Shown: positions 1,732-9,799 of the stretch, in pieces
Position numbering within the stretch: the stretch's first letter is position 1
How the letters are laid out: the number at the start of each line of letters is the position of its first letter
DNA from: an uncultured Bacteroidales bacterium
GTDB taxonomy: Bacteria > Bacteroidota > Bacteroidia > Bacteroidales > P3
Assembly (NCBI GenBank): GCA_900318665.1
Contig: ONLQ01000001.1
Span: forward strand, 143,342 to 207,341
Reading direction: 5' to 3'
DNA length: 64,000 nucleotides
Notes under the pieces: generated by a model
Seen by the model: the letters and a program-made list of their open reading frames with translations, nothing else
The model's database searches: none
Told to the model about the DNA's origin: nothing
Position numbers and translations under genes: made by a program

Positions 1732-1761
1732 TTTGAAATAATTAAATAAATTGTATCTTTG
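1732..1761 (+). promoter_or_regulatory. Bacteroidetes-type promoter for the NCRC lipoprotein operon
   Basis: TTTG at 1732-1735, 18 bases, then TATCTTTG at 1754-1761, matching the -33/-7 consensus. Transcription should begin near 1768, giving a leader of about 18 bases before the ATG at 1786. Confidence 0.7.
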
Positions 1762-1785
1762 CAACCAAAATTGGAAATGCCTATT

Positions 1786-1998
1786 ATGAAGAAATTGTTA
1801 TTTTTGATGTTAGGAGCCTGTATGGTGTTGGCGGTGTCGTGTGCGAAGGAAAAGAATTGCCGCTGCTCTGTTCCAGGTTCCGACAAAGTTCATCATCTTA
1901 CCATAAAGGATGGCGATTGCGCCGGTCTTAACACGTTGGAATATAATGACGAATACACCGCTTTTCGTCGCGACTCTCTTTATTGCATCGAAAAATAA
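1786..1998 (+). CDS. Small cysteine-rich lipoprotein with NCRC motif (first of three)
   Basis: 70 residues. The N-terminus is a lipoprotein signal (MKKLLFLMLGACMVLAVSC) with lipobox LAVSC. The mature chain has exactly four further cysteines: two in KEKNCRC just after the lipid cysteine, one mid-chain (GDC) and one three residues from the end (YCIEK). An upstream TTG (1759) or ATG (1777) could be used, but 1759 lies inside the promoter and MKKLLF is the signal start. It is the first gene of an operon with a second NCRC lipoprotein, a MauE-thioredoxin protein and a third NCRC lipoprotein. No known family was recognised; function unknown. The four cysteines could form two disulfides (inference). 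Confidence 0.75.
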   Translation: MKKLLFLMLGACMVLAVSCAKEKNCRCSVPGSDKVHHLTIKDGDCAGLNTLEYNDEYTAFRRDSLYCIEK

Positions 1999-2010
1999 CC
2001 ATACACTGCT

Positions 2011-2256
2011 ATGAAAAATCTGTTTTCTATTTTTTTGCTTTTTGCCATCGTCGCATTGTGTGGTGCCTGTTCTAAAGAGAAAAATTGCCGTTGCCAGGTG
2101 ACAGATGTTGATGACCACCAAACTGTTACGAGTAAGGAGGTTATCATTAATGCCAGCGGCGTCAAATGTGAGGACATCACTGATGTAGGCGACGAATGGA
2201 TGGCTCGCGAGGGCTTCAACTCGTCGCATAACAAGGTGGCCTGCGCCGAAGAATGA
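2011..2256 (+). CDS. Small cysteine-rich lipoprotein with NCRC motif (second of three)
   Basis: 81 residues with a lipoprotein signal and lipobox LCGAC. The mature chain begins SKEKNCRC, nearly identical to the preceding gene, and has the same four-cysteine plan: NC, RC, a mid-chain KC and a last cysteine three residues from the end (ACAEE). The loops between cysteines (24 and 24 residues) differ from gene one (17 and 21) and share little sequence, so these are diverged paralogues, not a recent duplication. It starts 12 bases after the previous stop, and its stop overlaps the start of the next gene in an ATGA at 2253-2256, indicating translational coupling. Function unknown. Confidence 0.78.
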   Translation: MKNLFSIFLLFAIVALCGACSKEKNCRCQVTDVDDHQTVTSKEVIINASGVKCEDITDVGDEWMAREGFNSSHNKVACAEE

Positions 2257-3185
2257 CACGTTCTCGGTTTCTTGTCGGCAAGCCTGGCCGTGTTGCGGCC
2301 GTGGTGTTGCAGGCTGCGGTGGCTCTATGGTTTGTGGCCTCTGCCGTAGGCAAACTGATAGACATCGACTCGTTCGAGGTCTATTTCTTTTCTTTTGGTT
2401 TTGTATCGCTTAGCGCGTCGTTTTTGATTGCGCGACTTGTTATAGTGGCGGAGTTGGTGCTTGGCGTTCTTCTGCTTAGTGGTATTGCTCCACGAAAGGC
2501 AACGGTGTTGTTGCTGTTGCTGATTATTGTGTTCTGCTGTTTCCTATGCTATGCCGAATGGATAGGGCGCAGCGACGACTGTCATTGTATGGGAGCGTTG
2601 GCTTCGTTGCCACCGTTGTTGTCGTTGCTGAAGAACGCTGTGCTCATCGTTCTGCTGTTGTTGCTATTGCGCGTCCGCCTCTATGCGTGGCATTCGCCGT
2701 GGTATGTGTTGCTGTTGGTTATCGTGGTTCTGACTGTCAGCGTGTTTGCTATCTCGTTGCCGGACAACTGGATGTTTGGCAAAGATAATGAGACATACAA
2801 TTCCGAACTGCTTGCCGTTATGGCCGAGGAGGGCGAACCGTTACAAGATGCGGATATTTTTGAGGGACGCAAAGTGGTGGTGATGGCCAGCGAAGGCTGT
2901 GGTAATTGCCGCATGGCTCTCAAAAAACTGAAAGCCATAGTTGAACGTCACGATTTAGATGAAGACGACTTTGTTGTGATTCTTGCAAGCCAGAAAAGCA
3001 ATGTGGTTGACGACGGGGTGCCTATGCTGCAGGGGCGGAAGTATGTGATAAACAATTCCGATTTTCTGCAATTGACTTATGGTGCACGGCCTATAATACT
3101 GCTGATGGATGACGGTGACACAGTAGCGTCATATCATGCTCGCAATATTGACGAAAACGAAATAGCGCAATTCCTGAAACAATGA
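2253..3185 (+). CDS. MauE/DoxX-like membrane domain fused to a periplasmic thioredoxin fold
   Basis: 310 residues. Residues about 10-170 carry roughly five membrane segments with a Cys-His-Cys-Met-Gly motif (Cys110, Cys112) at the place where MauE-type redox membrane proteins carry a CxC-F-G motif. Residues about 185-310 look like a thioredoxin fold: a CGNC active site (Cys216/Cys219) after a VVVMASEG strand, and a cis-proline-like ARPIILL near the end. MauE-family proteins are linked to disulfide formation or transfer; here electrons could pass between the membrane CxC and the CGNC site. It overlaps the genes on both sides by ATGA (2253-2256 and 3182-3185). Substrates are unknown; the flanking four-cysteine lipoproteins are the obvious candidates (inference). 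Confidence 0.82.
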   Translation: MTRSRFLVGKPGRVAAVVLQAAVALWFVASAVGKLIDIDSFEVYFFSFGFVSLSASFLIARLVIVAELVLGVLLLSGIAPRKATVLLLLLIIVFCCFLCYAEWIGRSDDCHCMGALASLPPLLSLLKNAVLIVLLLLLLRVRLYAWHSPWYVLLLVIVVLTVSVFAISLPDNWMFGKDNETYNSELLAVMAEEGEPLQDADIFEGRKVVVMASEGCGNCRMALKKLKAIVERHDLDEDDFVVILASQKSNVVDDGVPMLQGRKYVINNSDFLQLTYGARPIILLMDDGDTVASYHARNIDENEIAQFLKQ

Positions 3186-3382
3186 AGAAATATATATTGC
3201 TTGTTATCATTTTGGTGGCATTGTTTGCCACTTCATGCCACAAGAACTGCCGTTGCTACGGCTACGACGGCACTGTGACAGACTACAGCAAAGACGAGGT
3301 TGATGACAATGGCGGCTCGTGTCCGAACATGATTTATATGTACAACACGCGCTACTACTCGATTTGCGAGTGGGATAATTGA
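3182..3382 (+). CDS. Small cysteine-rich lipoprotein with NCRC motif (third of three)
   Basis: 66 residues: lipoprotein signal with lipobox FATSC, then HKNCRC and the same pattern of four mature cysteines (NC, RC, a GGSC, and ICEWDN at the end, last cysteine four residues from the C-terminus). It is rich in Tyr and Asp between the cysteines. Its ATG overlaps the stop of the MauE-thioredoxin gene, so the two are translationally coupled. Its position after the redox gene, with two relatives before it, makes a shared role likely. Not recognised as a named family. Confidence 0.78.
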   Translation: MKKYILLVIILVALFATSCHKNCRCYGYDGTVTDYSKDEVDDNGGSCPNMIYMYNTRYYSICEWDN

Positions 3383-7071: not shown

Positions 7072-8472
7072 ATGAAAAAGATAATCCTTGGCGCCATGTT
7101 GCTCTGTCTCGGCGGCGCCCTTATGGCACAGCAGAATGGCGGCATCAGTGCCGACATGATGCAGCAGATGAAAAAGACCTATTCCGGCAATGCTTCTGAC
7201 AAGGCTCTGCGTAACATCATGGTGAATAACAGCCCCGCCAAGATGGCTGTCAACTTCGACAACAATCGTGCTTTCAACTCGCATTTTTCTAATCGCGTTG
7301 AAGGTCGCGCCGTGACCGACCAGAAATCGAGCGGCCGTTGCTGGATGTTTACTGGCATGAATGTGTTGCGCAACAAGGCCATCCGCAAGTTTGACCTGCC
7401 CGCCGACTTCCAGTTCTCGCAGGCCTACACCTTCTTCTACGACCAGTTGGAGAAATCCAACCTCTTCCTGCAGGCCGTTATCGACACCTACAAGAAGGAT
7501 TGGAGCGACCAAGAGGTCATATGGCTCTTCCAGAACCCCCTGAGCGATGGCGGTCAGTTTACAGGCGTTGCCAACCTCATCGACAAATACGGTTTGGTGC
7601 CATCCGACGTGATGCCCGAGACCTACAACACTAACAACACATCTTCTATTACTGGACTTATTAAACTGAAGTTGCGCGAGGATGGTCTCGAACTGCGACA
7701 GATGGCTGCCGAAAAGAAGATGACCGCCGAGAAACTGAACAAGCGCAAGACTGAGATGCTCAGCGAGATATACCGTATGCTGGCACTCACCTTTGGCGAG
7801 CCTCCTACGGAGTTCACTTGGGAGCAGAAAAATGCCAAGGGTGAGACTGTCTCGACCGAGACCTATACCCCCATGTCGTTCTATGAGAAATATGCCAAAC
7901 AGGATTTCTCGAAATACTATATGGTGATGAACGACCCCACGCGCGAGTATTACAAGGTGTATGAAATCCAGTACGACCGCCACGTCTATGACGGACAGAA
8001 CTGGCGCTACCTCAACCTCCCCATGCAGGACATCGCCCCCATGTGCATAGCCTCCATCAAGGACAGCACCATGATGTATTTCTCTTGCGATGTTGGAAAA
8101 TTCCTCGACCGAGATAAGGGCTTCATGGATATGAACAACTACGACTATGAGTCGCTTTTCGGCACCAAGTTCGGAATGAACAAAGAGCAGCGCGTGCGCA
8201 CCTTTGCCAGCGGCAGCAGCCACGCCATGACCCTCTGCGCCGTTGACCTCGACAAGGACGGCAAGCCCGTGAAATGGATGGTCGAGAACAGTTGGGGCCC
8301 CAGTTACGGCTATCAGGGCAACCTTATCATGACTAACGATTGGTTCAACGAGTATATGTTCCGCGTGGTTCTCGAAGAGAAATATATCCCCGCCAACCTG
8401 CTCACCATGCTCAAGACCCAGAAGCCCATCATGCTTCCCGCATGGGATCCTATGTTCGCTCCCGAGCAATAG
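7072..8472 (+). CDS. Exported C1B cysteine aminopeptidase (bleomycin-hydrolase/PepC family)
   Basis: 466 residues with a signal peptide (MKKIILGAMLLCLGGALMAQ). The papain-type triad of the C1B family is visible: Cys90 in DQKSSGRCWMF, His in SGSSHAMTLCAV and Asn in MVENSWGPSYG. The length matches bleomycin hydrolase/aminopeptidase C, which are normally cytoplasmic hexamers; an exported form is common in Bacteroidetes. It should trim peptides in the periplasm. A second exported C1B paralogue begins 52 bases downstream on the same strand, so the two are probably co-transcribed up to the hairpin at 9820. Confidence 0.93.
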   Translation: MKKIILGAMLLCLGGALMAQQNGGISADMMQQMKKTYSGNASDKALRNIMVNNSPAKMAVNFDNNRAFNSHFSNRVEGRAVTDQKSSGRCWMFTGMNVLRNKAIRKFDLPADFQFSQAYTFFYDQLEKSNLFLQAVIDTYKKDWSDQEVIWLFQNPLSDGGQFTGVANLIDKYGLVPSDVMPETYNTNNTSSITGLIKLKLREDGLELRQMAAEKKMTAEKLNKRKTEMLSEIYRMLALTFGEPPTEFTWEQKNAKGETVSTETYTPMSFYEKYAKQDFSKYYMVMNDPTREYYKVYEIQYDRHVYDGQNWRYLNLPMQDIAPMCIASIKDSTMMYFSCDVGKFLDRDKGFMDMNNYDYESLFGTKFGMNKEQRVRTFASGSSHAMTLCAVDLDKDGKPVKWMVENSWGPSYGYQGNLIMTNDWFNEYMFRVVLEEKYIPANLLTMLKTQKPIMLPAWDPMFAPEQ

Positions 8473-8524: not shown

Positions 8525-9799
8525 ATGAAAAAACTTTTTGCACTTGTGGCAGTTGCCATTCTCGGCACCACTGCTTTCGCACAGGAAGCCAAAGAGTCTG
8601 AAAAGCAGGACTCTGGCTATCACTTCACTGTGATTAAAGAAAACCCCATTACCTCTATTAAGGACCAGAATCGCGCTGGTACCTGCTGGGCTTATAGCGG
8701 TCTTGCTTTCCTCGAGAGCGAACTGATTCGCACCGGCAAGGGCGAGTTCGACCTCAGCGAGATGTATGTGGCCTACAAGACCTATCTCGACCGCGCCATG
8801 AAGGCCTATCGTACCGGTGGTGAGACCAGTTTCTCGCAGGGCGGTGCTTTCAGCGATGTTATCTGGTGCCTCAAATACTACGGCATGGTTCCCGAAGAGG
8901 TGATGCGTCCCGGCGTCATGTATGGCGACACCCTCTCCAACCACGGCGAACTCTCCACCATCACCAACGCTATGGTGAAGGCTGCCTCCAAAGACATCAA
9001 GAAACCCCAGGTCGACAAAGACGGTCAGATGCTTTGGATGAAAGCCGTTGACCAGGTCCATCAGATTTATCTCGGCACCAACCCCGTCGAGTTCACCTAT
9101 AAAGGCGTGAAATACACTCCTATGTCGTTTGCCAAGGACGCCCTCGGCCTCAATGCCGACGACTATGTGAGCATCACCTCCTACACCCATCACCCCTTCT
9201 ACACCAAGTTTGTGCTCGAAATCTCCGACAACTGGCGTTGGAGCGAGACCTACAACGTGCCTATCGACGAGATGATGGAAATCATGGACTATGCTATCGA
9301 CAATGGCTACACCATCGCTTGGGGTAGCGACGTCAGCGAGGATGGTTTCCGCGCAGGTGTCCGCAAAGGTTTCTGCGTGCTGCCCGACCTCGACAACAAA
9401 GGCAAAGACAACGGCGGTAGCGACATGGCCCACTGGACTGGCCTCAGCCGCGAAGAGCGTAGCAAGGAAGCCTACGAGCACCCCACTCCCCAGCGCTGGG
9501 TGAGCCAGGAGGAGCGTCAGGCTGGTTACGACCTCAAAGAGACCACCGACGACCACGGCATGCAGATTTACGGCCGCGCCAAAGACCAGATGGGCAACGA
9601 ATACTACATGGTGAAAAACAGCTGGGGCGAAGTCTATGAATACAAAGGCATGTTCTATGCTAGCAAAGCCTTCGTGCGCTACAAAACCATGAACTATGTT
9701 ATCCACAAAGACGCTCTGCCGGCTCACATTGCCAAGAAACTCGGCATCGAGCAGAGCAACGCTAACGACAGCAAAGCCAAGAAAAGCAAGAAAAAATAA
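8525..9799 (+). CDS. Exported C1B-type cysteine peptidase, diverged paralogue
   Basis: 424 residues with a signal peptide ending AFAQ. The catalytic Cys54 sits in QNRAGTCWAYSG and the Asn in MVKNSWGEVYEY; the histidine is probably in DDHGMQIYG, which departs from the HAM motif seen in the upstream gene. It is shorter than its neighbour and similar mainly around the catalytic centre. It ends with a lysine-rich tail (KAKKSKKK). Role: periplasmic peptide cleavage. The altered histidine motif suggests different specificity (inference). Confidence 0.9.
   Translation: MKKLFALVAVAILGTTAFAQEAKESEKQDSGYHFTVIKENPITSIKDQNRAGTCWAYSGLAFLESELIRTGKGEFDLSEMYVAYKTYLDRAMKAYRTGGETSFSQGGAFSDVIWCLKYYGMVPEEVMRPGVMYGDTLSNHGELSTITNAMVKAASKDIKKPQVDKDGQMLWMKAVDQVHQIYLGTNPVEFTYKGVKYTPMSFAKDALGLNADDYVSITSYTHHPFYTKFVLEISDNWRWSETYNVPIDEMMEIMDYAIDNGYTIAWGSDVSEDGFRAGVRKGFCVLPDLDNKGKDNGGSDMAHWTGLSREERSKEAYEHPTPQRWVSQEERQAGYDLKETTDDHGMQIYGRAKDQMGNEYYMVKNSWGEVYEYKGMFYASKAFVRYKTMNYVIHKDALPAHIAKKLGIEQSNANDSKAKKSKKK

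Follow-up and report, generated by a model that had tools for sequence, protein, structure and literature searches.

What is the task of a membrane-bound thioredoxin-type protein whose gene stands among three genes for very small, cysteine-rich lipoproteins? The question is raised by a locus near the start of a 64,000-nucleotide stretch of DNA from an uncultured Bacteroidales bacterium, the whole of which we call the window. Four genes lie there on the plus strand: LP1 (1786-1998; 70 residues from its ATG), LP2 (2011-2256; 81 residues), the MauE-thioredoxin membrane protein, here MauE-Trx (2253-3185; 310 residues), and LP3 (3182-3382; 66 residues). The positions and sequences given for them in an earlier sequence-only reading were correct, as were the ATGA overlaps that it had pointed out between LP2 and MauE-Trx (2253-2256) and between MauE-Trx and LP3 (3182-3185). 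The set is flanked upstream by an EamA transporter gene (Pfam) and downstream by what is presumably a flippase-like gene, for which no Pfam match above cut-off was found, both on the minus strand. Farther along the window (7072-8472 and 8525-9799, plus strand), two neighbouring secreted proteins resemble, by eye, C1-type (bleomycin hydrolase-like) peptidases.

A putative promoter, TTTG-N18-TATCTTTG (1732-1761, plus strand), which we take to be a Bacteroidales-type motif, ends 24 bases 5′ of the LP1 start codon; the window holds 8 occurrences of the pattern, where shuffles give an expectation of 1.03. Among relatives of the locus, TAnnTTTG was present within 130 bases 5′ of LP1 in 30 of 41, and at that distance from LP2, MauE-Trx and LP3 in 2/41, 2/41 and 1/31, respectively. 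The full, stricter two-box pattern preceded LP1 in just 7/41. Median intergenic gaps, in the order LP1 to LP3, were 11, -4 and 1 bases. Since the element is found mainly in front of LP1 and the gaps are small, LP1 is most likely the first gene of the operon and, judged from sequence, the four genes form an operon behind one predicted Bacteroidales-type promoter.

By a scripted lipobox rule, LP1-LP3 are bacterial lipoproteins, each with a signal peptide whose lipobox ends in cysteine. They share one plan, as had been noticed from the sequence: the lipid cysteine (C19, C20 and C19 in LP1, LP2 and LP3) is followed after 5, 5 and 3 residues, the last of them N, by CRC (C25/C27, C26/C28 and C23/C25), and then by two more cysteines (C45 and C67, C53 and C78, C47 and C62), the final one 3, 3 and 4 residues from the end. 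A regular expression for this plan, composed after the sequences had been seen, gave exactly three matches on both strands of the 64-kb window, namely LP1, LP2 and LP3. The NCRC motif noticed in the group is a local spelling: the form seen among relatives is CxC, in which x is most often R and the residue before the first cysteine is most often T, R, N, D or Q.

All five cysteines were invariant in the aligned sequences of LP1 (34/34), LP2 (32/32) and LP3 (31/31), the window included each time; the alignments omitted 8 of 41 LP1, 10 of 41 LP2 and 1 of 31 LP3 relatives. A check of all relatives found the succession of lipid Cys, CxC, C and C in 41/41, 41/41 and 31/31. Few other residues are invariant, none of them a histidine or a methionine other than Met1, which in LP3 is the sole addition to the cysteines (M50 of LP3 is nearly invariant). 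The same economy was seen in 207 distinct lipobox ORFs around 172 MauE-Trx loci, a set in which many genomes are counted twice: 184 have exactly four cysteines after the lipid cysteine, CxC first, and 16 have CxC and five cysteines, a signal-peptide cysteine having been mistaken for the lipid cysteine in 10 of the 12 listed. Seven fall outside the plan, and five ORFs with fewer than four later cysteines are, by eye, spurious or unrelated. With the number of cysteines fixed, the two loops range over 14-38 and 9-33 residues, a pattern that would follow if disulfides were what chiefly constrains these proteins. In one locus (L164), a small lipoprotein downstream of MauE-Trx has CxxC in place of CxC.

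None of the lipoproteins scanned had an above-cut-off match in Pfam, NCBIfam or PADLOC. Membership of the PG1828 family (NF050142) was rejected, LP1 scoring 14.2 bits and its best relative 21.0 against a cut-off of 50. The structure model of LP1 is middling (pLDDT 77, pTM 0.48), and in a comparison with the PDB its best match had E 0.51, none reaching E<=0.001.

MauE-Trx was described in the sequence-only reading as a MauE-like domain with CxC joined to a thioredoxin fold with CGNC, and the description stands. Its MauE domain (PF07291) scores 64.6 bits against a cut-off of 27 and is matched by 28/28 members of a first alignment (E<=0.01); no DsbB or VKOR domain was found in the protein with Pfam. 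C110-H-C112 (2580-2588, plus strand) lies in the MauE part, in the loop between helices 80-103 and 121-140, and C216-G-N-C219 (2898-2909, plus strand) is the thioredoxin active site. These four cysteines and P280 are invariant in 28/28 and, in a second alignment that omitted 5 of 41 relatives, in 37/37 sequences. Both motifs were located in 40 of the 41 relatives; in the exception (L089) the called frame starts late, and the fixed offset of the script may have missed the CxxC.

An AlphaFold2 model of MauE-Trx (mean pLDDT 91.6, pTM 0.86) shows five long helices (10-36, 53-76, 80-103, 121-140, 150-167) ahead of a thioredoxin-type domain. By Foldseek, this domain is nearest to DsbF, ResA, TlpA, DsbE-type proteins and thioredoxins; the top 50 were nearly all thioredoxin-type (probability 0.98-1.00, E 4e-3 to 5e-2), none at E<=0.001. 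A profile match to glutaredoxins was found at E 7e-4. The protein thus has the fold, the CxxC and a proline at the putative cis-Pro position (P280, taken as the cis-proline from sequence) that mark thioredoxin-fold oxidoreductases, and it probably makes or swaps disulfide bonds. The active site of TlpA and ResA is WCxPC. In MauE-Trx the active site was read at the first CxxC beyond residue 150; of 113 sequences, a few paralogues among them, the 8 that had none were dropped. In the 105 distinct active sites so obtained, the third residue was Y in 58, F in 27, H in 10 and another in 10. It was in no case P, and W in no case preceded the first cysteine. By the WCxPC criterion a TlpA/ResA-type reductant was therefore rejected (0/105). 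Should the thioredoxin domain lie in the periplasm, with the fifth helix leading to it, the C110/C112 loop would share that side and the N-terminus would lie inside; basic residues of the N-terminus and of loops 77-80 and 141-149 agree with this arrangement. Searches of plasmids and phages gave no match to MauE-Trx, and a mobile origin was rejected on that account.

Within the same family, 173 of 190 genomes gave a match to MauE-Trx at E<=0.001, a count that includes paralogues; LP1 and LP3 profiles matched 154 and 126 of the 190. Gene order was compared in 41 loci from a scan of named genomes, for which the query was an alignment of 11 MauE-Trx proteins, that is, the membrane protein alone. 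The loci are titled Bacteroidales, Bacteroidetes or Candidatus Colimorpha, and many come from rumen, other fore-stomachs or horse faeces. LP1 and LP2 lay upstream of MauE-Trx in 41/41, and LP3 downstream in 31/41, within 60 bases in 28 of these. Three of the ten loci with no downstream LP3 (L099, L100 and L102) had an LP3-like lipoprotein of the plan on the other strand, 4.0-6.2 kb from the MauE-Trx start. Plan matches at the 41 loci numbered 108 in the 118,106 bases that lie within 1 kb of MauE-Trx and 3 in the remaining 377,341 flank bases, the 3 being these LP3-like copies. The expectations of the sequence-only reading that the lipoproteins would accompany MauE-Trx elsewhere and would keep their cysteines in homologues were both borne out.

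Longer MauE paralogues (369-424 aa), called BT_3928-like here from their length and a partial match only, were compared at five loci, and none had a plan lipoprotein on its own strand within 2.5 kb. Larger neighbours recurred among the 41 loci: a protein that we take to be FtsK in 31, and a flippase-like and a 240-aa protein in 28 each. No constant extra neighbour was found, none being present in all 41. LP3-type genes (L219 3751-3954, L220 10713-10934) lie some kb from MauE-Trx on the opposite strand and adjoin genes that resemble, by eye, radical SAM enzymes.

Co-occurrence extended across the order. A strong MauE-Trx match (E<=1e-50) was present in 32 of 247 Bacteroidales genomes, spanning nearly the whole profile in 29; in G265, G357 and G432 it spans profile positions 5-192 only, and the frames hold both CxC and CxxC. 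A profile of 16 order-wide lipoproteins, to which 12 of the 247 genomes gave rows, matched 22 genomes at E<=1e-7, all within these 32 and none among the 215 others, counted among the best candidates of each genome (at most 23), with absences not exhaustive. Leaving out the 12 row-giving genomes gave 10/20 against 0/215 (Fisher 1.6e-12, which ignores relatedness); the 22 matched genomes share families and genera, and the co-occurrence counts ignore this kinship. Between E 1e-7 and 1e-6 the profile matched G000 and G142, both with MauE-Trx, and G395 (E 2.7e-7), which has no strong match and in the single stretch examined had no plan lipoprotein. With G000, G138, G141 and G142, whose MauE-Trx neighbours follow the plan, lipoproteins are present in 26 of the 32 MauE-Trx genomes; no clear one was found in G193, G213, G228, G282, G304 and G326, where G282 and G304 gave weak matches.

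The lipoproteins may also be unlinked to MauE-Trx, as in G265, G357, G388, G432, G190, G330, G411 and G301, and they then retain the full cysteine plan; G265 has four five-cysteine lipoproteins in a row (L203, 6859-8012), far from MauE-Trx. Six genomes of the window's genus (G010, G018, G043, G051, G053 and G114; 59-79% complete) have lipoprotein matches and no strong MauE-Trx match; G043, G051, G053 and G114 were inspected further. One genome, 69% complete and with no MauE-Trx match found, carries two nearly identical five-cysteine lipoproteins in tandem (L216, 2907-3354). Outside the genus, weak lipoprotein matches with no strong MauE-Trx were seen in G131, G144 and G152. Beyond Bacteroidales, a search of the phylum at E<=1e-25 gave MauE-Trx matches in 20 of 345 genomes, one of them that of the window; of the other 19 loci, a single one showed a plan lipoprotein in its short flanks (G477, same class, adjoining gene). 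Chance or a local oddity was rejected on the counts of synteny, locality and co-occurrence. As the sequence-only reading had proposed, the lipoproteins and MauE-Trx are, by these sequence comparisons, a real conserved unit, linked or unlinked, that is widespread in part of the Bacteroidales.

Genomes were also searched for disulfide machinery, and control genomes behaved as expected for DsbB, VKOR and DsbD. DsbB was found in 0/48 genomes and VKOR above cut-off in 0/62, one genome (G208, which has no MauE-Trx match) reaching E<=0.001; the DsbD membrane domain was present in 48/48, with or without MauE-Trx. A reducing route is therefore likely present, and no known oxidising route was found. The 48 genomes comprised 33 with and 15 without a MauE-Trx match, and both kinds were devoid of DsbB and above-cut-off VKOR. 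Since genomes without MauE-Trx also lack both, a role of the unit as general replacement for DsbB or VKOR was rejected, and the argument from their absence is weak.

Genome comparison gives good support to the view that MauE-Trx has the lipoproteins as redox partners. The reading that we prefer, and hold to be on balance just probable, is that MauE-Trx is a membrane thiol oxidase dedicated to its own lipoproteins, into which it would introduce disulfides much as proposed for MauE/MauD. A role of MauE in disulfide formation in methylamine dehydrogenase has been put forward as a speculation (PMC7794033). MauE-Trx would sit in the inner membrane, its CxC and thioredoxin domain facing the periplasm, and would oxidise, or oxidise and shuffle, the four non-lipid cysteines of each lipoprotein, which would thereby gain two disulfides. 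Electrons would pass from CxxC to the CxC of the membrane part and on to a membrane acceptor, probably a quinone. The lipoproteins would then be clients: very small folds, stapled by disulfides and held by a lipid anchor, that carry out the actual function at the envelope. Synteny, co-occurrence, locality, the economy of cysteines, the motifs and model of the enzyme, the presence of DsbD where no DsbB or above-cut-off VKOR was found and the non-WCxPC active sites together favour this explanation. Against it count the six MauE-Trx genomes with no clear lipoprotein, the lipoprotein genomes with no strong MauE-Trx and the single plan lipoprotein among the 19 loci outside the order, and against an oxidase in particular counts a fold nearest to the TlpA/ResA/DsbE and thioredoxin types, many of which are reducing.

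Another reading has the opposite direction of electron flow, in which MauE-Trx would keep the CxC...C...C of the lipoproteins reduced for loading with copper, zinc or iron; the invariant cysteines would also fit a metal site. TlpA is a reductant for copper-binding oxidase subunits, and the structural neighbours of the thioredoxin domain (DsbF, ResA, TlpA and DsbE-type proteins) include a TlpA-client complex (4txv). The MauE part, moreover, distantly matches HvfX, a copper-peptide maturation protein, at 23.6 bits, a score far below the cut-off of 80. We nevertheless consider a reductase unlikely, as the DsbD membrane domain is already present in 48/48 genomes whether or not they have MauE-Trx, the active site is not of the WCxPC form, and LP1-LP3 hold no invariant histidine, nor a methionine beyond Met1 (M50 of LP3 nearly so).

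The lipoproteins might themselves be catalysts, their CxC being charged by MauE-Trx and the disulfides passed on to other envelope proteins. CxC is known as a redox motif in Mia40, which works with Erv1 in mitochondria, and a quinone-coupled MauE-Trx with lipid-anchored micro-proteins could, as a rather doubtful idea, be a bacterial counterpart of Erv1-Mia40 that supplies envelope or outer-membrane proteins in anaerobes with no recognisable DsbB or VKOR. We know of no bacterium with a disulfide relay of this kind. The several lipoproteins per genome, some of them unlinked, could serve different targets, and the searches for DsbB and above-cut-off VKOR showed no other such oxidant. Catalytic and structural cysteine pairs might, however, sometimes be expected to separate, and among the 207 lipobox ORFs no member stood out with CxC alone or with the C...C pair alone; carriers are for that reason less favoured, and we rate them as decidedly unlikely.

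All parts of the unit are redox-capable, so that the lipoproteins could instead change form with the redox state of the envelope and report it; the sequence-only reading had suggested that the unit may present or sense redox state, or bind a ligand. The operon contains no regulator, and the recurrent neighbours (FtsK-like, 31; flippase-like, 28; 240-aa protein, 28) are not in all 41 loci; we regard sensing as very improbable, and clients of a dedicated oxidase as the more likely role. That unrelated small lipoproteins, which are common in Bacteroidales, stand beside a redox gene by chance has next to nothing to recommend it, given synteny in 41/41 loci, co-occurrence when unlinked, near absence of the plan elsewhere and the five longer MauE paralogue loci with no such lipoprotein nearby. 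Anti-phage defence was also rejected, the sole PADLOC match being a weak one to a helicase model (11.9 bits).

The unit defines an as yet unnamed, testable family of Bacteroidales micro-lipoproteins whose conserved content is five cysteines and which are tied to one membrane enzyme. In the Bacteroidales tested, which have no recognisable DsbB or above-cut-off VKOR, a dedicated oxidase with its clients would, if true, open directly to experiment by what means, and to what end, disulfides arise in these anaerobes, and it would widen the known roles of MauE domains.

The sequence-only reading recognised no described system of this form, and we likewise found no above-cut-off family match for the lipoproteins and no such unit among the literature matches listed; as far as databases and literature were searched, it is unnamed. 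In PMC10783030 the match to MauE is an author's name. In candidate RiPP clusters of Streptomyces, a MauE homologue is encoded beside a predicted small precursor of 8 or more cysteines, which the authors suggest that it modifies (PMC7794033). As described there, those are candidate RiPP precursors of Actinobacteria, not lipoproteins (PMC7794033). The BT_3928 family (NCBIfam NF045576) has the MauE region in common with MauE-Trx (49 bits, residues 18-145); membership was rejected against a cut-off of 250, the model having 358 positions and the protein 310 residues, and the five longer BT_3928-like paralogue loci differ in having no five-cysteine lipoprotein nearby. The window's genome also encodes a second, distant MauE protein (L002, G000:C42, 66898-70161; E 5.3e-5), whose open frame of 387 residues has the length of BT_3928-type paralogues, a likeness of length alone. 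The HvfX family (NCBIfam NF050144) has, by its name, a DoxX/MauE-like membrane part that matures a copper-binding peptide; membership was rejected at 23.6 bits against 80.

In DsbA/DsbB and in VKOR-thioredoxin fusions a membrane cysteine pair is coupled to a periplasmic thioredoxin fold. MauE-Trx likewise combines such a pair with the fold, but has no DsbB or VKOR domain, and its putative partners are co-encoded and few. DsbL/DsbI with AssT is a dedicated oxidant-client operon and resembles our preferred reading in having one oxidant with its own client alongside; here the membrane family is another, and several tiny lipoproteins take the place of one enzyme. In methylamine utilisation, MauE has the same membrane domain, MauD is its thioredoxin-type partner, and a cysteine-rich periplasmic protein is served. 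The operon in the window contains no mau gene, both parts are fused in one chain, and the neighbours are five-cysteine lipoproteins instead of a dehydrogenase subunit.
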